Shown: piece by piece, positions 3,348 to 63,517 of the stretch | Layout: each line of letters starts with the position of its first letter | Numbering within the stretch: the stretch's first letter is position 1 | Notes under the pieces: generated by a model | Database searches by the model: none | The model's input: the letters and a program-made list of their open reading frames with translations, nothing else | What the model was told of the DNA's origin: nothing | Assembly (NCBI GenBank): GCA_016946835.1 | Contig: JACVTC010000097.1 | Location: 506,001 to 570,000 of the forward strand | Reading direction: 5' to 3' | DNA: 64,000 nucleotides | Origin: Neocallimastix lanati (nom. inval.) | Taxonomy: Eukaryota > Neocallimastigomycota > Neocallimastigomycetes > Neocallimastigales > Neocallimastigaceae | Position numbers and translations under genes: made by a program

Positions 3348-3801
3348 TTTATTTTTCTTTTATTATGTATTTTTTTTTTTTTTTTTTTTTTTTGCTTTGT
3401 TTTTGTTTGGTTTATTTTGTTATGTTATGTTTTGTTTTGTTTTTTTTAATGAATTTCAATATTAATTTTTTAAAAATAATTAGATTATTTATAAAATCCA
3501 ATAAATTTATTATATAAAAAATATTATTAAAAATAAAATACTGATGTATTTAGTTCAAAATATACAAGTTTTATTTTAGAATAAATATATATATATATAT
3601 AATACCTTACTATAATATTTACAATAATTATTAATAAAAAATATAAAAATATAATATAATGAAATAAAATACTTTATTTTTGTGAAAATTAATTAATACA
3701 TATTATACAATATCAATAATTAAAAAATAAAAAATAATAGTAATCATTTCATTAATAATTTTTTTAATGTTATTATTTTTTATTATAATATTAAATATCT
3801 T

Positions 3802-3841
<40 letters not shown>

Positions 3842-4316
3842 TTAATTATTATTTAGGATTTAATGTATAATCCAATTTTATATAATTTAGTTTATTATCT
3901 AATTGAATTGAATATATATCACTCATATATTATTTAATTTAATTTTTTTCCTGTTTTTTATTTTATTTTTATTTCTATTTATAGTTTAGAGTTTATTATA
4001 ATAATATTATATTTATTACAATAAATTATTTGTATAATAAATTAAATATTAATTCATACATAATAGTAATTATTTATGATACTTTAAAAATATATTTTTT
4101 TCTGTAAAGTGATATATTTTTAATAATAATGAACATTCAACAATAATTTATTTAGATGTTTATTTTTTTTAATACCTTTTATAGAGAATATTAATAAAAA
4201 AAAAAAAAATTAAAAATAAAAAGTCAATATTAATTCAAATATAATTTCTTTAATAATATAATAATAATAATAATAATAAAAAGTTTAATATTATTAAATT
4301 ATATAAAAGAGCGACC

Positions 4317-4348
<32 letters not shown>

Positions 4349-4691
4349 ATAAAAATATTATATATATATATTTATTTATTAAATTGAATTTAATAAAATA
4401 AAATAATAGATTTTGATTTATACAACATTATATTTTATCAAATTAAATTTATAAAAATTAAGATTTTTATATTTTATTTTTTATATATTAATATTATAAT
4501 AATTAAAAAAATTTATATTAAATATAGGTAAAGTAGGTATAAAATTTAAATCACGATAATAACATTTGTATATTCTGTATAAAATATTATAATAAATATA
4601 CATATATATATATATTTTATTTTCCCTATTTCATATATATATATAAATATAAATGAAAATAATAATAAATTCTTTAAAATTTATTTTTGTA
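3348..4691. other. AT-rich intergenic region
   Basis: Lies between the membrane-protein gene and the 3' end of the MAU2 homologue, both on the minus strand. It holds poly-T runs at 3367-3392 and 3805-3836, a poly-A run at 4317-4344 and an (AAT)n run near 4258-4280. No gene seen. Confidence 0.5.
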
Positions 4692-4878
4692 TTAATAACG
4701 AAGTACTAATTCATTCGTTTTTTGTGATGCTAATTTAGCATGATAATTTCCAATAATATGTTGGTATTGAATATTAATTTTTTCATATTCTTGACTTTCT
4801 TTAATTTTATTAACATTTTTATAATATTCTATATTTGTTAAAATTATTTTTTATATAAAATTATTATTAGCAATAAAT

Positions 4879-4911
<33 letters not shown>

Positions 4912-6719
4912 TATATATATATATATATATTATTTACTATCATAAAATAAATTTTTATGTTCCAAATAATTTTCTTTTTATTTTAATTTTACCTTTCAAT
5001 ATATTTGTAATGATATAAGAGAAATATATCATTTGATTTTTTCTTGAAATTAAATAAGCTGTATAAAAGATTTCTTCGGATTGTGGTGGGTTAATAATAT
5101 ATAGATTTAACCCTAATACCAATAGAGCATATACTTTTATATGTGATGATCCGGTATTTTCCATTATTTTAATTGATTCAAATAAATTGGTTCTTTTAAG
5201 AAGAAGAAAAAAAAATTTTTATTTTTTTATTTATTTATTTAAATTTATATTAATTATTAAATAATTAAAATTAATAAATTTAAATGATACCTCGATTTTC
5301 TTAGCTCTTTATTAAATGTATAAGCCATACTTTTTAAGACTAATAAAGATAATTTAAATTGACTATCATCTACATTACCAATTAAACGAGTTACTTCAGA
5401 TTCCTTATTTAAAATATTAATTTTAAATTATTTAAATTTTATTAGCATAACATATTTTATATTATTTATTATATAAAATTATATATATATAGTTTTATTT
5501 AATTATAATTTACCATATTATTATTATTTAATTTTCCATTGCTTTTATTTAACAATATTAAATTGATTTTTGCTAATAAGGCAACATTACTATTTTTATT
5601 TTTTCTTTCTATCATCTAAAAAGTATATATATATATATATATATATTATATAATATTTATATATGTTAACAAATAAATAAATATATTTTAATAAAATTAT
5701 TATTTTATTTTTTATTTTTTATTTTTTATTTTTTTTTATTTTTTTTTTTTATTTTTTTTTTTTTATTTTTATTTTTATTTTTATTTTTATTTTTTTTTAA
5801 TAAAAGTACCTTAATTGCGTTTTGATACCAAGTTTCAGCATTTTCTACATTCCCTAATGAATGATTTAAATAACCCAAATACAATGCTAATTGTTGATTT
5901 TTATTACTAACTTCAGTTGTTTTAACAGGAACTGTTGCAAATTCATTTATGAACTTTATTAAATCATTTTTTTTTATGGTTTAAAGAAATAATTTTAGAA
6001 AATAATATTAAATAAATAATTATTTTAATAAAAGTAAATAAATAATATATCATAAACTTACATTAAAAGATCTTAGATAATCACAACGATTAATTAACAA
6101 TGATATTATTTCTTTAAGTAAATTTCCTTTTTGATTGATACACCATTCTTTATAATCCTCTATATCTTCATAAAATAAAAAATTTTCTTTTTCTTTTTTT
6201 ATCAGTATTATTAATATTTTTTAATATATTTGTTATTAATAATTAACATATTTTTAACAATTATATTTATTATTATTATATTTATTATTATTTTTGTTAT
6301 TATTATATTTTAATAAAATTTTATTAACATTTTTAATCTACTTACTATCTAAAACAAGAGCCACTATTATATAAATAAACAATACAAAATAATAATAAAA
6401 TTAAAATAAATAAATAAATTAATATATATATGTAAATTATTAGAAAATTGATATATATAAGAACAATCTTTAAATAAAATAAAATGAAATAAAATAATAA
6501 TTATAATAATAATAATATTATTATTGTATACTTACACTGAATATTTGAAATTTCTTTTTCTAAATATTTTAAAACTTCTTTAGATTCTGTTTTAAATTTT
6601 AATTTTCTTGTTAAAAATAAAATGTATGAATATAACTGATGTTCAGATATAAATGAAATATCTATATGATCAACTACAGGATCATTTATTGGTATCTAAG
6701 AATTATTTAAAATAAATTT

Positions 6720-6794
<75 letters not shown>

Positions 6795-9700
6795 ATTAAC
6801 ATTAGATAAATTAATAAATTTTTTTTTTTTTTTTTAAAAAAAGAAAAAAGTTATTATATTATTACTAATTAAACAAATTAAATATAAAGTTAAAAAGTTA
6901 TTATCATTATTTTTTTATTACATCACAAAATGGCATTGCACTTGGAATAATTTCAGAATATTTTTTATTTATTTCATAGATTTGATTTAAATAATTATGT
7001 GCCATTTTTAAATTATTAAGTTTATAATAACCGTATGCTTTAAGAACATAATCATACATCAGGTAAATTAAACTATTTTTATAAGGGAAAGTTGGAATAA
7101 TATTTTCATCTTGATTAGTAAATACAAATTTTATAATAATATCCAATAAATTATCAATTTGTCTGAAGGAATTTTCCATTTCTTCATAATTTTTATTATT
7201 TATTAGATATTGAACTTTATATAATAATAATGCAATCATAATTTCTATATCTACATTTTCCAATGCTTTATTAATGATAGTATCAACTTCATTTAAAAAT
7301 TCATGCTTATTTAAGTTATATAATCGATTTAATGCTTTCAATTGGAAATAATAATACCAATACACATTTCTTTCTAATAAAGCTTCATTTGAAGCTTGCT
7401 TAATTAGTCCATATAAATTTGTTTCATTCATTGTTTTGCTATTGTTTTTTTCACTAATTTTTATATGAATATCTATAATTCTGTATTTCAAATCACTGCA
7501 ATTTAATTTTTTACAAAGCATATATGCCTTTTGAATATGCTGTTCTGCTTCATAATAATTATCAGTATAAATATATAAGATTTCACCTAATTTAAATCTG
7601 GTTTTTGCTTCAACTTTTGGTGTTATAAGTTGTTTACAAATTGGTGAATTTAAAATTGATAGTAAGCATTTAATTGCTGTTAAAATTAGATTTTGAATTT
7701 TTATTTGATCAGATGGATCTGTAGTTAGTGAAATTAATTTTTGAGCCTCATGAATATATTCCTCTGAGAATGACCAAAGAATTACATGAAGCGGTATCTG
7801 TACTTCTTCACTTGCTTCATGCTCTACCTTACTCTGATTATTAATTTCTGAAGATAATTCATTTTGAGAATTGGTATTGTTTTGGTTCCCAAGTGCAGCA
7901 TCTTGTTTTTGTTCTAAAGGTTGTTGCTTTATTTTTGGTTGCTCAAGTCTCTGTTGTTCTAACTTTTGTTTTTCTATTTTTTGTTTTTCTAATTTTTGTT
8001 GTTCCAATTTTTGTTGTTCCAATTTTTGTTGTTCCAATTTTTGTTGTTCCAATTTTTGTTGTTCTAATTTTTGTTGTTCTAATTTTTGTTGTTCCAATTT
8101 TTGTTGTTCTAATTTTTGTTGTTCCAATTTTTGTTGTTCCAATTTTTGTTGTTCCAATTTTTGTTGTTCCAATTTTTGTTGTTCCAATTTTTGTTGTTCC
8201 AATTTTTGTTGTTCCAATTTTTGTTGTTCCAATTTTTGTTGTTCCATTTTTTGTTGTTCCAATTTTTGTTTTTCTAACTTTTGCTGTTCTAATCTCTGTT
8301 GCTCTAATCTCTGTTGTTCTAATCTCTGTTGTTCTAATCTCTGTTGTTCCAATTTTTGTTGTTCCAATTTTTGTTGTTCCAATTTTTGTTGTTCTAATCT
8401 TTGTTGTTCTAATCTTTGTTGTTCTAATCTTTGTTGTTCTAATCTTTGTTGTTCTAATCTTTGTTGTTCTAATCTTTGTTGTTCTAATCTTTGTTGTTCT
8501 AATCTTTGTTGTTCTAATCTTTGTTGCTCCAATTCTTGTTGTTCCAATTTTTGTTGCTCTAATAATTGTTGTTGCTGTTCATTTTGTGTTCTTATACGTT
8601 TTCTTCTTTTAATAACTTGGCCTGAATGTTGTTCATTTGATACATTTAAATTATAACCATCAGATACTTTTTGAGAATTTAGATGTTGTTGTTGAGATAA
8701 ATTTGAATACGAAATTGAAGATTGAAACATATTATTTTGATCACTTGTTGGTGTATTTGGATATGAAGGCAAGAACGACTGGCTTCCCATTTTCTGTAAA
8801 TAACCAAGGTTATTATTATCGTTAATATTATTTTGTTGATATTGATTGCTAGTTGCTACTGAAGGTGTATTATTATTACTATTATTACTTATATATTGAC
8901 CTGACGATGAATTGTCAATATAAGTATTTTGATTTTTTGAATTTACATTTTGAGATTGCTGATGAGATTGACTAGAAACAGATAAATTTGTATTTTGATT
9001 TTGAATGTTTTGATTATTTTGTATAGAATAATTCATTTGATTGGATCTTGTTTTAAAACTTTGGGAATAATATTGATTAGCTTGTCTTTGATCTTGTTGT
9101 TGCTGAGAATAACCATATGGAGAATTAATTTGATGTTGTTGATTTTGATAATATCTCTGTTGTTGCTCTTGTTGCTGCTGTTGCTGTTGATACTTCCTTT
9201 TTTGTTCTTCCTGTTGACGTTGAAACTTAATTCTTTGTTCTTCCTCTTGCTGTTTTCTAAGTTGCATTTGTCTTTGCTTTTCTTCTTCTTGTTGCTTCTT
9301 TAATTGAATTTGCCTTTGTCTTTCTTCCTCTTGTTGTTTTCTAAATTGAATTTGTCTTTGTCTTTCTTCCTCATGTTGCTTTTGTAATAGTAATTTTCTT
9401 TGTGATTCTTCTTCTTGTTGCTTTTTTAATTGTAATTGTTGTTGTTCTCGTTGTTGCTGTTGATACTGAAATTGACGTTGTTGTTCTTCTTCTTGTTGCT
9501 TTTGTAAATGATACATACGACGTTGTTCCTGTTGTTGTCGTTGAATTTGATATTGTTGTTGTTGTTCTTTTTCTTGTTGTTGCTGAAGCTGCATTTGCCT
9601 TTTTTGTTCCTGTTGTCGTAAAATTTGTACTCTTCGTTGTTCTTCCTGTCTTAATAATTGTATTTGTCTTTGCTTTTCCTGTTCCTGCTGTATTTGATAT

Positions 9701-10074
9701 TGATATTGATATTGCTTTTGTTGTTGATATTGTAATTGAGGTTGCTGTTGTTGTTGTTGTTTAATTTGATATACTCCTTGTTGTGGCTGTTGCTGTGGTT
9801 GTTGAGTTTGCTGTTGTTGGTAATTTTGGTACATCTGATTTTGCATTTGATTTTGATAATTATATTGAACTGAATTATTTCCTTGTTGAGACACCTGAAT
9901 CTGTATTTCATCCACTGGAACGTAAGAATTATAATATGTATTTCTATTATAATTATTCATCTGCTGATCGACCTGTTGTCGCTCAGAATAACTTACATTA
10001 TTGATCATATTAACATTTTGATTAGAATTTTGATTTAAATTCCAATTCATATATTTATTATTATAATTCATCTT

Positions 10075-10077
<3 letters not shown>
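4692..10077 (-). CDS. MAU2: MAU2/SCC4 cohesin-loading factor homologue
   Basis: MAU2/SCC4 is the TPR partner of NIPBL/SCC2 and helps load cohesin onto chromatin. Exon 1 (6922-10077) encodes about 1,052 residues: a Gln/Asn-rich N-terminus, a charged Q/E/R coiled coil, an LEQQ[K/R] tandem repeat at about 505-735, and from about 761 the TPR-like helical start of the family (LGEILYIYTDNYYEAEQHIQK). I trace at least seven further exons with good splice sites: 6536-6695, an 18-nt micro-exon at 6346-6363, and coding blocks near 6070-6210, 5815-5970, 5515-5610, 5292-5410 and 4955-5190. The last block ends at the stop codon at 4692-4694. They encode further TPR helices (ALYLGYLNHSLGNVENAETW). Without the Q-rich extension the size is about 600-640 residues, normal for MAU2. 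The family call rests on recalled conserved spacing. The exact borders of the small exons are inferred. Confidence 0.78.
7921..8560 (-). repeat. 15-bp minisatellite encoding LEQQK/LEQQR
   Basis: About 40 tandem copies of a 15-base unit (on the plus strand roughly TTGTTGTTCCAATTT) sit in frame inside exon 1 of the MAU2 homologue. Blocks of LEQQR flank or alternate with blocks of LEQQK, and C/T differences in the second codon mark sub-blocks, so the array probably grew by unequal exchange in segments. Expansion keeps the frame because the unit is a multiple of three. The plus strand is also open across the array (CCSNF repeats), which is a by-product of composition. Confidence 0.9.
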
Positions 10078-52957: not shown

Positions 52958-52966
52958 GAGTGTGTG

Positions 52967-53088
52967 TCATTTCGCAAAAATTCATTTCGGAAAAGTTTCA
53001 TTTCGCAAAATTTTTTGTGTCATTTCGCAAAAGTTCATTTCGCAAAAATTTCATTTCGGAAAAGTTTCATTTCGCAAAATTTTAATAA
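52967..53088 (+). repeat. Left inverted terminus, seven CATTTCG[C/G]AAAA units
   Basis: Units occur in the order C, G, C, C, C, G, C (the base after CATTTCG). The two halves are near copies of each other, so the end was itself duplicated. Confidence 0.85.
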
Positions 53089-53545: not shown

Positions 53546-54046
53546 GAATTATTTATAAATATTTCTTTTATTAAAAAAATTTATTAGCAATTTAAGATTT
53601 TTAAAATACTGCGCAAGGACTTAAAAGGTGTAAAATGATCAATTAATTATTTAAATATTATTTTTTAATATTTTTTTTAATAATTATATTTTAAATTTAA
53701 CAATTATATTTTAAATTATTATCCTTTACATCTTTTAAATTATTAATACTTATTTTTTTATATATATAAAATTCTTATATATATTTTAAAAAATTATAAA
53801 ACGTTTAAAACATATGATAAAATATTTTATTTTTTTAAAGCGTTAATTCTAATGAATATTTATTATTATATAATGTATATTTAATATATATATGTCCATA
53901 TATATATGTATATTTTTTTTTAAAAATTTAATTTTAAAATTTATTTATTTATTATAGTTTTATATATTTATTTTTATTTATTTAGTTTTTTATTTAAATT
54001 ATATATATTATTTATTTATTTTATTATTAATTTATTTATTTATTAA

Positions 54047-54129
54047 AAATTTTGCGAAATGAAACTTTTTATGTAAATTTTCCGAAATGAAACTTTCCGA
54101 AATGAAATTTTGCGAAATGCTCTTCCCCC
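54047..54129 (-). repeat. Right inverted terminus, four CATTTCG[C/G]AAAA units
   Basis: Read on the minus strand the units are C, G, G, C. The innermost part AAAATTTTTAATAAATA mirrors the inner border of the left end. Confidence 0.85.
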
Positions 54130-54138
54130 ATAAAAAGT

Positions 54139-54560
54139 ATAAATATAAATTATAAATAAATTCTATTAATTAGAAAAAAATAAAAATAAAAAAAAAAAAA
54201 GTTAAAGTTATAAAAATTAAAAAAAAAAATAAAAATAAAAAAAAAAAGTTAAAGTTATAAAAATTATTTCAAAATATTTATTGTTTACTTTATACCCAAT
54301 ATTTTACGGTATATTACTATTTAAAGTAACTTATTATTTTCAATTCTGCAAAAAATATTTAATATTAAAAAAAAAAAAAACTTTATTTATTATTATTTTT
54401 AATTAATATAAAGTTTAATATTTATTATAATAAAAAAAATATGTATATATATAAAATATTGCTATAAAATATTCTTTGAAGAAATAATTACTATATATAT
54501 TTTATATTCAATAAACTTTGCAATATACCTAATCATTAAATTTAAAATTTTCATTTCATA
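54139..54560. other. AT-rich spacer
   Basis: Contains a tandem pair of an ~55-bp A-rich unit with GTTAAAGTTATAAAAATT (54200-54265). It separates the inverted-terminus element from the decayed gene module. Confidence 0.5.
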
Positions 54561-54564
54561 TACT

Positions 54565-55581
54565 TAACTCTCAAAATAAAAATTTACTAAAAGAACCATT
54601 TTCATCATTAAATACACCAAAAACACCTTCCTATAACTTATTACTTGATTCGGATATAGAAGAACCATCAAATTCAGAAGATAAATCAGAATTCAAAGTT
54701 ATTGATCATATCAATATTCAATTAAGTAACCTTGAGAAAAAAATTGAACAACTTGAAAATGATAACAACTCAAATAATGACAAACACTTAACAAACAGTC
54801 AAGAAACTATTAACATTCCATAACTTGATGGAATATCAGAGGAATTAGAAGATGATTACAGAAACATTTATAAATCTGTTAAACAAAAAATATTTATAAA
54901 CAAAAAATACAATTAATACTTCATATTAACACATTCATCAGAAAAATTAAAATCGCTTTTAAAAAAAAATGTATCAACGAAATTAACATTTATTAAAAAA
55001 CTCAAAAAGTACAATTAATACTTAATATTAACACATTCGTCAGAAAAATTAAAATCGCTTTTAAAAAAAAAATGTATCAACGAAATTAACATTTATTAAA
55101 AAACTCATAGAATACGAAACAAAAAGCATTTAATCATTAACAAATTTAAATTATTCAAATATAAATTTCTAGATACTTCAGAACGCAACAATATTGATAT
55201 TTGTTGCCATTGTAAACATGGTGTACTAAATCAATGTTCATGTACTGGTTCTTATATTACTAATATTGCAGCTGAAACATTTGAAGAAAAACTTGAAATG
55301 AAAAAAATAATATTAAAAAACTTAAAGACATTAATAAAGATTTATGCAAAATATTTTATCATATTATTGACCTTAAATGATAACTGCTTTAATATTTGGA
55401 AATATAAGAACCAAATTGGCAACTTAAGAACTCAAAAAACTGAATTATTAACTAATCACCCATTTATTAAAAAATTTGACGACTATTCCAAAAGCTATTC
55501 AAAAAAAAAAATATGTTTTTATTGCAACTACGAAGTACCTAAATTCTGTGAATATAGTGGCCATTTTATTTACACAATTTA
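54565..55581 (+). pseudogene. Decayed ORF with coiled coil and Cys motifs
   Basis: First gene of the decayed module; family not recognised. An open stretch from 54565 gives a Ser/Asp/Glu-rich segment and a coiled coil (VIDHINIQLSNLEKKIEQLE) up to a TAA near 54820. More stops follow, then a tandem duplication of about 100 bp (54907-55104). From about 55170 the frame reads NIDICCHCKHGVLNQCSCTG and later CFYCNYEVPKFCEYSGHF before the stop at about 55580. The paired C-x-x-C motifs suggest a zinc-binding protein. At least three in-frame stops and a frame change show it is no longer functional. Codon use and base composition are like the following relic, unlike the A/T desert around them. Confidence 0.55.
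54907..55104 (+). repeat. Tandem duplication of about 100 bp
   Basis: The block starting ACAATTAATACTT and running through CATTCRTCAGAAAAATTAAA to AAAAAACTCA occurs twice in a row with only a few differences, inside the first decayed ORF. Confidence 0.85.
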
Positions 55582-55599
55582 AGTAGTATTATAAATACT

Positions 55600-57483
55600 T
55601 TATCAAATAATACAAATATAAACCCAGAAGGTTTGAATAAACAGTATATGAAAGGTTTGACTATAGTTGATGATAATGCTGTTAGTGAGTCAACAGATAT
55701 TGTTATTGATAGAATATATAATAGTTTTACAGTTTTTCCATTAGATTATATTGATATTACCGAAACTAATAGGTACAGTACAACAAAAGAAATAAGAATA
55801 AAAATTGAAAATTTAATACAGGGTGATTATAATTTAAGAAATAGCATGACCGTTACGTTAAATAATACTTTAAATTGTAGTTTTGATACTAATTACGGAA
55901 ATGATTATACTTTAGTTTTATATGATTATGTAATAACAAATTAATGTAAAATACCAATGAATTAGTATTAGCGTCTGAATATACAGATAATAGGAAAATT
56001 AAATTATTAGAAGTAATGAATTTAAGCGATTTAATTAATAACCAATGGATAATATCCCCCATAGGCAGTAATAATACGGTTAGTCCATCATTATTATATA
56101 CTGCAATGAAAGAAAATGGTCAAATAATAGATGATATTAATATAATAACAAAATTGGAAGATTATAATAATATTGTTAATTTGTGGCCAACGGATGCAAC
56201 TGAAATAAGAAGTAGTAATTCTTTTCCTATTAATTATACTAATAATACAGAAACAATAAGACCAACTAAAGGTTCGGATTCAGGTAATAATCCGATATAT
56301 TATTTTCTATGAAAAGTTTTATATATACATTGAATTTAAAGGATGTAGTTGTGCCGTATAGAGAAATAAACAGTAATATATATAATTTTATTGTTTCGGA
56401 AATTGTTGGGAATCAAGGTTAAACTATAAGTGGTATTAAAAGTATATCATTTAAATTGAAACCTTTATATATTGGTTATAGTACATTGCAGAATAATGGT
56501 AGTTATCAACTATCAAGACAGGAAACTGATAATGGATATCTTGGGTTATTAAATGGAATAGTTATTAGTTATGTAGATAATAATATTATTAGTGATGGTA
56601 GTGGAGTTTTAAATGATAATGAAGTTTATTTTAAAAGAAGAATAGAAAGAATAATTGAAAGAGGAAATATTAATGGATATTGTGATTATGAGAGTGTGGC
56701 GAAGTTGTATAATAATAAAAATACTTATACAATACAGAATTATAATCATTGGGCTGATTCGTTAGATAAATTAGTAGAACATGACAAATTAGTGTTTCAA
56801 AGTGTAACTCAAGATTCTTATATTCCTATAATGGATAGTATAACTTTACCTGCAATAACTGATAATGGAAATGTTACATTTAACATATCAGATTTTAATA
56901 GTTCATATGATGAAGGTAATTTGAATGCATTGAATCATTATAAGAGATGATTTGGGTGTTGATACTATTACAATTCCAGTAGAAGTACAAAAAACTAATG
57001 TAAAAATAATACAACAAAAAGCATTACTTCTAATGGAACTTATAAAACCTCCCCCCAAGTCCATATACTGGATTTAACAGTGTTAGCGTTTATGTTACTA
57101 CTAGACCTTCGTTTGGATGGATAATAACTAATCCTTTTTATGACGGATATGTTACTGGTGAATGGACATATGGCAAAGGAATTGTTAAAAATGGATATAT
57201 TAGTGGTTCTACGGGTTCAGTAACGACGATAAGACATTTGTTAAGTGCAAAATCAAGTCAAGGATATTATTGTTTAGTTTGTTAGTCACAGCTTGAAAGA
57301 CAAAATTACTTTTATAAATATGCTTTTAATTCTTATCCTTTTATAAATAAAAGTACATCAAATAGTTATTATATTAATATAAAAATATCATTTAATGGAA
57401 ATGAATCTGAATTGGATAATAAAATTTATGTTATTTGTGATAAATATTATACTCAGTCGAGTTGTCCATCTACATTTAATTAA
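55600..57483 (+). pseudogene. Decayed long beta-rich structural-type protein
   Basis: A continuous protein-like reading of about 620 residues can be followed through frame changes near 55945, 56310, 56945, 57015 and 57055, and through stops near 56420 and 57285. The segments are Asn/Thr/Ser/Tyr-rich with short alternating strands, for example TNRYSTTKEIRIKIENL, KSISFKLKPLYIGYSTL and NISDFNSSYDEGNLNA. Near 57020-57100 a split motif, SITSNGTYK then PYTGFNSVSVYV, matches the 'NGTYTP..GYDGFSSVTVNV' repeat known from phage and gut-bacterial surface or tail proteins. It lies between the Cys-motif relic and the helicase gene, all on the same strand. A virion or adhesin-type structural protein is inferred. 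The degree of decay argues against present function. Confidence 0.55.
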
Positions 57484-57674
57484 ATATATATATTTATAAG
57501 ATTATAAAAGTTGTAATTTGTCAATATTTTTACCAATCAAAAAGAATATATAATTTTAATTAATAATTAATTAATACATTTTAAAAAAGTAATTGTAAAT
57601 AGATAAAAAAAACTTAGAAATAAATAAATATAAGTAATATTGACTAGAATTAAATAAAATATAATAATAACTTT

Positions 57675-58118
57675 ATGAATATGAAAATTATAAATGGTTT
57701 TAATATTAGTGCTGAAGAATTATGCAAGAGAAAGAAGGTTTATTGGATACAAGGACCCAGTGGAATAGGAAAGAGTAAATTAGCTTATGACATTATAAAA
57801 TTTTGTAATAAAAAAAATAATAATGAACATGAGAGTTTAAGTGCTATTTTTGGAAAAGGATATCAAATTCAAATTTTCGAAAAATCTAATATTGTTTTAT
57901 TTGATAATTTTATGAAAGGTTGTTGTACTCCAAAAACATTAATAAACTTAGTACAAAATAAGAGACCATTGAAAGCTAAATTTGGAAGAAAATTTTCTAA
58001 CTTTAATATAATAATGATTTGTTCTTGTTATAGAATAAATGAAATATTTCCAACAGTAAAAAAGGAAAGAAGAAAAATGTGGGAAGATTATATTGAAGTA
58101 ATTGATTTTTATAATTAA
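57675..58118 (+). CDS. Superfamily-3 helicase domain, Rep-like (CRESS-DNA type)
   Basis: Intact 147-aa ORF, the only undamaged gene in the module. Visible motifs: Walker A GPSGIGKS (27-34) preceded by KVYWIQ; a Walker-B-like IVLFDNF (73-79); a motif-C-like IIMICSC (112-118); and an ERRKMWEDYIEVIDF end. This order and spacing match the ATPase half of replication initiators (Rep) from circular ssDNA viruses and related plasmids. The N-terminal HUH endonuclease (HUH histidines, YxxK tyrosine) is missing: only about 25 residues precede Walker A. The second acidic residue of Walker B is Asn and the usual Asn of motif C is Cys, so ATPase activity is doubtful. It could be a cellular fossil of a Rep protein or a separately encoded helicase. 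Start chosen at the first Met; the second Met two codons later is equally possible. Confidence 0.72.
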   Translation: MNMKIINGFNISAEELCKRKKVYWIQGPSGIGKSKLAYDIIKFCNKKNNNEHESLSAIFGKGYQIQIFEKSNIVLFDNFMKGCCTPKTLINLVQNKRPLKAKFGRKFSNFNIIMICSCYRINEIFPTVKKERRKMWEDYIEVIDFYN

Positions 58119-58269
58119 AATCAATATAATGATAATTTAAAATATAACAATAAACATTTAATTAATTGTTTTTGATATAAATTGATTTGTAAAATCTAAG
58201 AGCAAATAAAATAAAAATAAAGATTATTCATACAAAATAATGAAGTTTAGTTTAAATTTAAGAAAAACT

Positions 58270-58629
58270 TTTAAATAAGTTAATTGGAGAAAAGGATAAA
58301 TTTAATAAAATCATTATAAATTTTTTATTAATTAGAAAGAATTATAAAAATTGTAAAAATAAAAAAATAGGAAAAGAATATATAATAGAATATTAAAATG
58401 TTGTTGAAAAATATTTTTAAAGTTTTACTAAAGTATAAGAATAGATATCTGCAAAAAAGAAAATTTTACTTTAGAAAAGGAATTTGAGAAGGATAATTTG
58501 GAATATACTATCTCTGATTTTGAATACTATTTTATGATGTTCATATTTAAGAAATTAAATGATGATATCTACCCTAGGGATAATTTGTTAAATTACTATT
58601 ACTTATTATTTAAGCTCTCTTTCCCATAA
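58270..58629 (+). pseudogene. Coding relic downstream of the helicase
   Basis: From about 58284 one frame reads GEKDKFNKIIINFLLIRKNY and continues for about 15 residues before stops. From about 58459 another reads KENFTLEKEFEKDNLEYTIS, then FEYYFMMFIFKKLNDD and PRDNLLNYYYLLFKLSFP to TAA at about 58627. Acidic-hydrophobic patterning and mixed codons show these were coding. The family is unknown. Same strand and similar decay as the upstream relics, so probably the last gene of the module. Confidence 0.4.
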
Positions 58630-58753
58630 TTATTTATTAATGTTAATATTTACTTTAACAAAATATTAAATTTAAAGGATAATATATATTATTGAATAAA
58701 ATATTGATTATATATTTATATTAAAATCAAAAAATTACATTGATTAAACATTT

Positions 58754-60212: not shown

Positions 60213-61080
60213 TATTATTATTATTATATTATTAATATAAAATTTTAATATTATTACTGTACATTATTTAATATTACTTTTTTTGTATAAATAATAAAAT
60301 ACAATAAAAATATTTTTTTTTCTTTTTCTTTTTTTTTTTTTTAATTAGCAAATAAATGAATATTAAAATTTTATGTTATAGTTAACTAATAATATGAAAA
60401 GTGTAGAAATGAATATTGAAATTTGAAATTATAATAAAGATTACGATTATAAATATTTATATTTAAACCTTTATAATAATTCTGCTATTGAAGTAATACA
60501 CATAAAAAAAAAACTCTCCCTGAAAAAAAGAAAATAAATAAAAAAAAGTTAGTTTTTTAAATTAAAGTTATATAGATAGTCATACCAAATAAATAAATTT
60601 TTTTTTCCTTATTGTCATTATTTTTAAATATATTTTCTAAAATATAAAATATTTTAAATATTCGAATGTACTTTAAAATAAATAATTTTTACAAAAATAT
60701 ATATATATATAAACAAGCTTTAAATATAAAAAAGTATAAAATGAAATAAAATGTTACAAAAAAAAAAAAAAAAAGCATTAAATACACATAAAATAAACAA
60801 AAAAATTCAAATTCATGTGTCAATTCATAATAAAATAAATGATAGACTGTACTTTTTTATTTTTATTTTAGTCATTATTAGTATAAATTTTAATTTTATT
60901 GTAAACTTAATATCTAAATTTATGTTTATATTTTACAAATTTGAATTTTGAAAATGTTTAAGATAATTCTAAATCATTAATTTTAATTTAAAAAAATATA
61001 TTATTAATTAAAAGTATCTAATGATAATGATAAATGACTATTTTTTTCTCAACATTGTATAATAGACTCATTTTACATAT
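58630..61080. other. AT-rich gene desert, part 3
   Basis: Poly-A at 58760-58796, poly-T at 59000-59023, (ATT)n at about 60170-60230. Small frames such as 59663-59800 (MTVLIRLCIFVLIFFF start) are short hydrophobic strings without support. No gene called. Confidence 0.5.
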
Positions 61081-61697
61081 ATTATTTATTATTTATTATT
61101 TATTATTTATTATTTATTATTTATTATTTATTATTTATTGTTTATTATTTATTATTTATTATTTATTATTTATTATTTATTATTTATTATTTATTATTTA
61201 TTATTTATTATTTATTATTTATTATTTATTATTTATTATTTATTATTTATTATTTATTATTTATTATTTATTATTTATTATTTATTATTTATTATTTATT
61301 ATTTATTATTTATTATTTATTATTTATTATTTATTATTTATTATTTATTATTTATTATTTATTATTTATTATTTATTATTTATTATTTATTATTTATTAT
61401 TTATTATTTATTATTTATTATTTATTATTTATTATTTATTATTTATTATTTATTATTTATTATTTATTATTTATTATTTATTATTTATTATTTATTATTT
61501 ATTATTTATTATTTATTATTTATTATTTATTATTTATTATTTATTATTTATTATTTATTATTTATTATTTATTATTTATTATTTATTGTTTATTATTTAT
61601 TATTTATTATTTATTATTTATTATTTATTATTTATTATTTATTATTTATTATTTATTATTTATTATTTATTATTTATTATTTATTATTTATTATTTA
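61081..61697. repeat. (ATTATTT)n heptamer array, about 88 copies
   Basis: Longest array in the window, interrupted only by single A-to-G changes at about 61140 and 61588. It produces a long stop-free plus-strand frame of repeated LLFIIYY, which is a composition effect and not a gene. Confidence 0.95.
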
Positions 61698-61719
61698 ATT
61701 ATTATTATTTAATTATTGG

Positions 61720-61762
<43 letters not shown>

Positions 61763-63517
61763 TTTTAATTTAATTTGATTTTTTAATTAAAATGATTTTT
61801 ATTTATTTTATATTTAAACTTTATTTTTAATATAAATAAATTTTAATTTTTTTTTTTAAAAAAAAAGTTTTAATTTTTTTCCAGTAGTTATAATTAATAT
61901 ATTTTACACCTATATTAGAATTAATATTCAATTAATAGGCTAATTAAAAATTTAATTAAAATTTTTTAAAAGTAAAAAAAAATAAAATTGATTAAAAAAA
62001 AAAAAAAAATAAAATGAACTCAAAAAAAAAAAAAAAAATAAATATTAAAATAAAATAAAAAAAGAAAAAAAATAATAATAAAAAAAAAAAAGAAAAGAAA
62101 AGAAAAAGAAAAGAAAAAGAAAAGAAAAAAAAGAAAGAAAAATTAATACAGAAAATATTAAAGAAAAAAAATATTACGCTTCTTTTTTTTTTGTTAATTA
62201 AATTTAAACAATAGTAACTAAAAAAATGAGTATAATAATACAATAATTGGTATTATCAAAAAAAAAAAAATTGTTTTTCTTTATTGTAATTAAATATAAT
62301 TATATAAAGTTTTGTAGTATTTATAAATAAAAATAGAAATTAAAAAAAAAATAACAATATTTCAATAATTAAAACAGTTTCATATAAGTATTGAAAAAAA
62401 ATAATAATAATAATAATAAATAAAAATAAAATAAAAAATAAGAAAGAAAAGAAAAGAAAAAAGAACTAATAGTTCAATCATGAATTAAAATTATAATATA
62501 CCTATTTACTATATATCTAATTTAATAATTATATAATAAAATATAATTAGTACTAAATTACTAAATCGTTGAATAGTTTCGTTTTTTAGTTTTAATATAT
62601 TACTTAATATTTGTTCATTTAAATTTCGACTTTTCTTTCTATATTCTTACTTAATAATTATTAATTATGACCAAAAAAATTAATTAGTATCAAATGCTTT
62701 TTAATCATTTTTAAATTATTAAATTGAAGGAAAAGTTTTTATTTTATTGTTTATCCTAATTTTTTAATGTTTGTATATATACAATTTTGAAATTTCCTTT
62801 TTTTTTTTTTTTTTTTATTATTATTTTCTTAATTTACATAATAAACAGCGAAAATATATATATATATATATATATAATTACATTCTTAATACCAATCCAT
62901 TGTAAATAACATAGTAGTACTTAATAATAATATCATTAATAATAATAATAATAATAATAATATCAAATACTTCTAGAAAAGTATTTCATTTAATAATCAA
63001 TTAATAAAAATTAATAAAGTACGTAATATTTTTAATATATATTTTTTATATGAGATAAAAAGTATAAATTAACTGTATTTAATAATAACTGGTTTAAATT
63101 TAAATTTAAGAAAAAATATATCAATAATATTGAATAAAATATTAAAAAGTAGAATAAAATAAAATAAAAAAAAAAAAAAAAAAAAAGTTAAACCAATAAT
63201 AACATATAATAAAAATAAAAAATATATATAGCAAAAGGAAAAATATAATAATAATAATAATAATAAATAGTAGTAGTAACACATAGATTTTTTTTTATCT
63301 AAATAATGATAACAAAAGTAGACATACTATTTAGCATATATGAAAGAAAATAATAATAAATAAGCTACTAAATCATTAAATGCAATAATTATTTAAAAAA
63401 AAATAAAAAAATAAAAAAAATAAAAATAAAAATAAAAAATTGAAAAATAAAAAAAATAATATAATAAAAGTAAAAGTAAAATAAAATAAAAAATTATGTT
63501 AATAATAATAATTAACA
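61698..63517. other. AT-rich region upstream of the last gene
   Basis: A TA run (61728-61754), purine-rich A/G tracts (about 62080-62150) and (AAT)n at about 62936-62960 and 63248-63268. No gene or recognisable promoter. Confidence 0.5.

Follow-up and report, generated by a model that had tools for sequence, protein, structure and literature searches.

The Rep protein of CRESS-DNA viruses combines a nuclease with a helicase. Rep-like genes of circular ssDNA viruses occur in fungal genomes, and the fungal proteins have been called geminivirus-like (Liu et al. 2011, PMC3198968). Whole CRESS genomes have been found in Entamoeba and Giardia (Kinsella et al. 2020, PMC7493932), and the origins of SF3 helicases have been treated by Kazlauskas et al. 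2019 (PMC6668415). In the Neocallimastigomycota, RNA viruses are described from two of eight isolates, in a survey the dsRNA part of whose method ignores DNA viruses (PMC7482067); no report of CRESS relics in this phylum was found in the literature, among the matches listed.

Here we describe a locus on contig C760 of the 199-Mb, 762-contig genome of Neocallimastix lanati, situated in a 64,000-nucleotide stretch of DNA analysed as a whole (the window). With the Pfam results and a genome search with the RNA_helicase family in view, we consider it somewhat probable that about 3 kb of this DNA (~55.58-58.65 kb) is the relic of a small Rep-encoding element, related to CRESS-DNA viruses and long integrated in the AT-rich fungal chromosome. 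The best reading is that of a virus or plasmid with CRESS affinity and an unusual build, in which a long gene (B) is combined with a helicase-only Rep. The features are as follows (window coordinates):

54533..55582, + strand: A, broken Cys-motif ORF; pieces A1 54533-54823 and A2 55100-55582
55558..57483, + strand: B, a long gene now broken, its eight open pieces spread over three frames (from open frames): B1 55558-55944, B2 55950-56312, B3 56291-56422, B4 56423-56950, B4b 56934-57077, B4c 56999-57124 (NGTY letters), B5 57046-57285, B6 57286-57483
57484..57674, no strand: AT-rich spacer between B and the helicase, 10.5% GC
57675..58118, + strand: SF3-type (CRESS-Rep-like) helicase ORF, intact, 147 codons (from sequence comparisons)
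58119..58650, + strand: G-rich tail of the unit, holding piece D (from composition)
58432-58629, + strand: doubtful piece D, 65 codons

Structure and decay of the locus

The setting is a fungal chromosome, as a preliminary description of this DNA had proposed: the window has genes that encode a Zn(2)-Cys(6) cluster, an ERT1/acuK PAS domain and an ASH2 PHD finger. The AT content of the window is extreme, and the coding pieces do lie in the AT desert noted earlier, the named pieces (54.5-58.65 kb) having 20-35% GC and the flanks ~10%. Together with a near-identical helicase on metagenome-type contigs (see below), this AT-richness suggests an anaerobic gut fungus as host. A tRNA search and an Rfam search gave no match.

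The long open pieces between 54533 and 58118 described here (A1, A2, B1 to B6 and the helicase) are located on the + strand. In 1000 dinucleotide shuffles, the longest frame was never reached for either A (160 codons; shuffle maximum 117) or B plus helicase, 55558-58118 (175 codons; shuffle maximum 122), and the latter segment contains five pieces of at least 75 codons, against a shuffle mean of 0.08. The length of D was equalled by 15 of 1000 shuffles, and this piece can hardly be separated from chance; the part of the tail that precedes it (58119-58431) has a GC skew of +0.49. The preliminary description had proposed a one-strand module of four units, three of them riddled with stops and frame changes. 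The open pieces on the + strand are real and both A and B are broken, whereas D is near chance and A is off in composition.

Within ~1.9 kb, as counted from the eight open pieces of B, the reading frame changes five times and is interrupted by two further stops in frame; at its start B shares ~30 bases with the end of A2. In an HSP70 control on the same assembly, 48 of 52 matches (1.6-1.9 kb) had no internal stop, the 52 being the best of 118 candidates, a choice that favours intact genes. Since HSP70 matches mostly lack internal stops, the breaks in B probably represent real decay, and assembly error is unlikely.

B and the helicase have in common their strand and, mostly, a G-rich skew (B4 and helicase +0.43; remaining B pieces from -0.03 in B6 to +0.44 in B3). 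In A the skew is negative (A1 -0.42, A2 -0.13), opposite to that of B4 and the helicase, and third codon positions contain 2-4% G and 12-16% C, as against 6-10% G and 1-9% C in B plus helicase. Because of this difference in composition, A is taken as a neighbour, probably of other origin, and its membership in the module, as first described, is doubtful. Host genes have 6-14% G and 4-9% C at third positions; this measure therefore does not set B and the helicase apart as foreign. The A relic contains a tandem duplication of ~102 bp (54901-55115); its pieces matched no family better than E 0.01 (Pfam, PHROGs and NCBIfam-type libraries), and A2 had no relatives in IMG/VR in a scan that finds close relatives only. 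Membership of the neighbouring relics in host families present elsewhere, named at the outset as speaking against a module, was not seen: A1, A2, B1, B4 and B5 are each single in the genome.

Repeats of the CATTTCGCAAAATTT type are clustered at 52963-53085 and 54045-54125 of the window, mutually inverted and ~1 kb apart; they resemble the termini of a small transposable element and lie immediately upstream of the relic. The window also includes a long tandem repeat (61034-61768), readable as a YYLLFII-repeat frame, and, on the - strand, a Q-rich ORF of 1056 codons (6907-10077) with long LEQQR/LEQQK repeats.

The helicase and the Rep relics of the genome

The helicase frame is open throughout, as claimed. 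Its comparison with the genome gave five matches from six candidates, all scored: one was the ORF itself, and the other four were all located inside relics of CRESS-type Reps (C224, E 7.8e-7; C15, E 2.7e-5; C335, E 9e-4; C699, E 0.03). With the C15 Rep as query, C224, C335 and C699 were matched a second time, and the window was matched at E 8e-4. Host AAA or STAND ATPase genes were not found as the closest genome relatives, so that the grouping is with Rep relics (all four non-self matches) and not with the cellular ATPases that had been named as contrary evidence.

A set of 5.8 billion proteins, in which lengths of ~81-257 residues were covered, so that whole Reps were out of reach, yielded five candidates and one protein for the helicase query. 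The metagenome protein P0001 (six member sequences, 12 contigs) differs from the helicase at 2 of 147 residues and aligns with the C15 Rep at 29% over 115 residues (E 4e-9). Moreover, with a profile built from nine helicase pieces of the relics, the window ORF obtained 35 bits (E 9.8e-10), against E 0.037 for the next-best window frame and a top score of 11.7 bits among 2000 shuffled helicases; since this profile includes relics first found via the window ORF, the independent evidence consists of the genome matches and the alignment of P0001 with the C15 Rep. The likeness to Rep relics extends into the C-terminal stretch. These results back the SF3, Rep-like type originally assigned, and the ORF resembles a Rep helicase, with which it probably shares its descent.

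Comparisons with family and structure libraries gave a less specific picture. The top Pfam family was NPHP3_N (E 3.1e-4) and the second RNA_helicase (E 6.6e-4), both below the cut-off, and the best PDB Rep match reached only E 0.011. The predicted structure (pLDDT 64) was most comparable, as a model, to general P-loop ATPases. The Walker-B-like site reads D-N, as against D-D in four of the six relic rows that cover it (N-D and E-E in the others), and this substitution would make helicase activity doubtful.

A complete Rep was not supported, as no HUH domain was detected before the helicase or elsewhere in the window with a profile of seven HUH pieces from the genome's own relics. The top score was 6.9 bits (E 0.56) for the window as a whole and 4.5 bits (E 3.1) for frames of the module, in a search that a very diverged HUH would escape. 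Given this result, the unit is not classed here as a CRESS virus. As for a stem-loop origin, the module lacks TAGTATTAC; looser nonamers, two in number and located at 56.1-56.3 kb, have little meaning, the DNA there being AT-rich.

Clearer fossils occur elsewhere. The C15 Rep gave 17 matches on eight contigs, which define, besides the window, eight Rep relic loci (one each on C15, C744, C224, C335, C412 and C699, two on C124). Stops interrupt 10 of the 17 match rows, from six of the eight loci. These loci fit endogenous CRESS Rep elements well; they support a host lineage that took in CRESS-type Reps, and suggest that these fungi are present or past hosts of CRESS viruses. On C224 (~1470.4-1471.7 kb) the Rep relic takes the form of tandem partial copies, and an open frame of 264 codons spans parts of two of them. 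At two of the eight loci a capsid-like ORF lies on the strand opposite to the Rep relic, and a lone piece of it occurs at a third place:

C124:680.7-682.4k: Rep relic on +, then a 243-codon capsid-like ORF on - (in stretch C124:677000-685000, Rep 3677-4622 +, capsid-like ORF 4711-5439 -)
C744:187.0-187.3k: pieces of the same capsid-like ORF on -, ahead of a Rep relic on + (in stretch C744:184500-192500, capsid-like 2481-2815 -, Rep 3692-4643 +)
C112:898.0k: lone capsid-like piece on - (in stretch C112:894000-902000, positions 4021-4218), with no Rep piece found within 4 kb

The opposite-strand second gene, and its differing linear order at the two loci, fit a circular two-gene virus opened at different points. 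The capsid-like ORF had no Pfam or NCBIfam match, nothing better than E 0.17 in PHROGs, a best E of 1.2 against PDB sequences and no relatives in IMG/VR (close relatives only); it therefore owes its name to place and size. Neither the helicase, the C15 Rep nor the HUH alignment had relatives in IMG/VR scans of the same reach, and the C15 Rep matched no PDB sequence at E <= 1 and no phage or plasmid record. When 12 module pieces were tried on 8-kb stretches round the eight loci, the helicase alone was convincingly matched, in five of them; B was not found at any (B3 gave one match, E 0.98).

Origin of the unit

Taking these data together, the active element may have been a circular DNA copied by a Rep whose helicase part is the window ORF, the nuclease step being carried out by a since-lost domain or by another protein, and B would have encoded a structural or surface protein. 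Integration was presumably accidental; B would then have decayed, while the helicase frame may have survived through luck or because it was kept. Of the endogenised CRESS-like virus or Rep plasmid first envisaged, the Rep-type helicase and the decayed neighbour thus remain, but not a complete Rep or the four-gene module. Speaking against a CRESS-related relic are the missing HUH, NPHP3_N as top Pfam family ahead of RNA_helicase (both below the cut-off), the general P-loop ATPases given by structure comparison, host-like third positions, the matchless state of B and its absence from the eight other Rep loci. Also on this side is a search of the genome with the RNA_helicase family (E <= 0.01), which hit a single place, on C643, but not the window or the Rep relics. 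The B pieces belong to no Pfam or NCBIfam family and reached nothing better than E 0.011 in PHROGs (B3, B4b, B6 and D were scanned against family libraries only, which for B6 and D were just Pfam and PHROGs). PDB sequences gave nothing better than E 0.18 for B1, B4 and B5, which also had no relatives in IMG/VR (close relatives only). In the 5.8-billion-protein set, covered for B at ~350-1120 residues, none of 3040 candidates reached E <= 10. The predicted model of the largest B piece (pLDDT 28.9) was unusable and lends no support to the beta-rich character first described.

A helicase ORF taken up alone as a Rep fragment, putatively domesticated by the fungus, beside a B that is an unrelated adjoining pseudogene, is a rather unlikely alternative that would account for several observations: the helicase is intact whereas B is broken, it has an ATG of its own where the domain begins, it is nearly identical to the metagenome protein (2 of 147 residues; six member sequences, 12 contigs), and B is at none of the other Rep loci. 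At B's break rate, however, the helicase would have stayed open with a chance of ~0.19, so that an intact frame says little for function, and the D-N at the Walker-B-like site, where four of six relic rows have D-D, makes activity doubtful. We regard as very unlikely a bacterial or phage stretch, acquired horizontally and composed of a surface protein plus an ATPase or helicase loader. A PHROG DNA helicase does match the ORF (E 0.0015), and the best phage match of B5 is a Providencia phage protein (E 0.05). The NGTY...GFNSVSV letters of B, which lie within the open frame 56999-57124, are, we assume, like a repeat in gut phage and Firmicutes surface proteins. The motif described earlier is thus present, but its phage-type link has no database support, and for the proposed bacterial or phage surface protein the B pieces gave nothing better than E 0.011, from tools of limited reach. 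Moreover, the helicase is closer to the Rep relics; it had no match in plasmid records at E <= 1 or in GTDB genomes, and nothing better than E 0.9 in phage records. B4 likewise had no match in GTDB genomes (both GTDB scans find close relatives only), and B2, B4 and B4c had none in phage records.

It is barely credible that the unit derives from a positive-strand RNA virus, part of which (a capsid followed by a 2C-type SF3 helicase) was copied into DNA, even though RNA viruses are known from these fungi (PMC7482067), the long gene sits upstream of the SF3 helicase, and RNA_helicase is among the Pfam matches (E 6.6e-4). The helicase most closely matches the Rep relics of DNA-virus type, C-terminal stretch included, and is set apart from B by the AT-rich spacer and its own ATG; no polymerase or protease was matched by Pfam in the pieces searched. 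The CRESS-related relic remains the reading we prefer. Its boldest extension, which we consider unlikely, is that anaerobic gut fungi have small DNA viruses of a lineage not seen before, of which the window holds the first trace; their Rep would consist of a helicase only, another protein supplying the nuclease, and a structural protein of great length would replace the usual capsid.

Comparison with described elements

The Rep and capsid-like relics would constitute fossil evidence for anaerobic gut fungi as past hosts of CRESS viruses, and the relic in the window hints at another lineage, of different build.

RNA viruses of early-diverging fungi (PMC7482067) resemble the putative element in infecting the same host phylum, but are RNA and not DNA. 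The bacterial pCRESS plasmids share with it the SF3 helicase superfamily (PMC6668415); as described there, however, they carry nuclease-helicase Reps, and plasmid records, as reported above, offered no match to the helicase. Close to it, too, are the endogenous CRESS Rep elements of eukaryotic genomes, those of fungi included, as presented in PMC3198968 and PMC7493932. As in those, a decayed Rep-type helicase is integrated in a eukaryotic chromosome; the window unit differs from them in having no HUH domain that could be found and in carrying a long B gene on the same strand.
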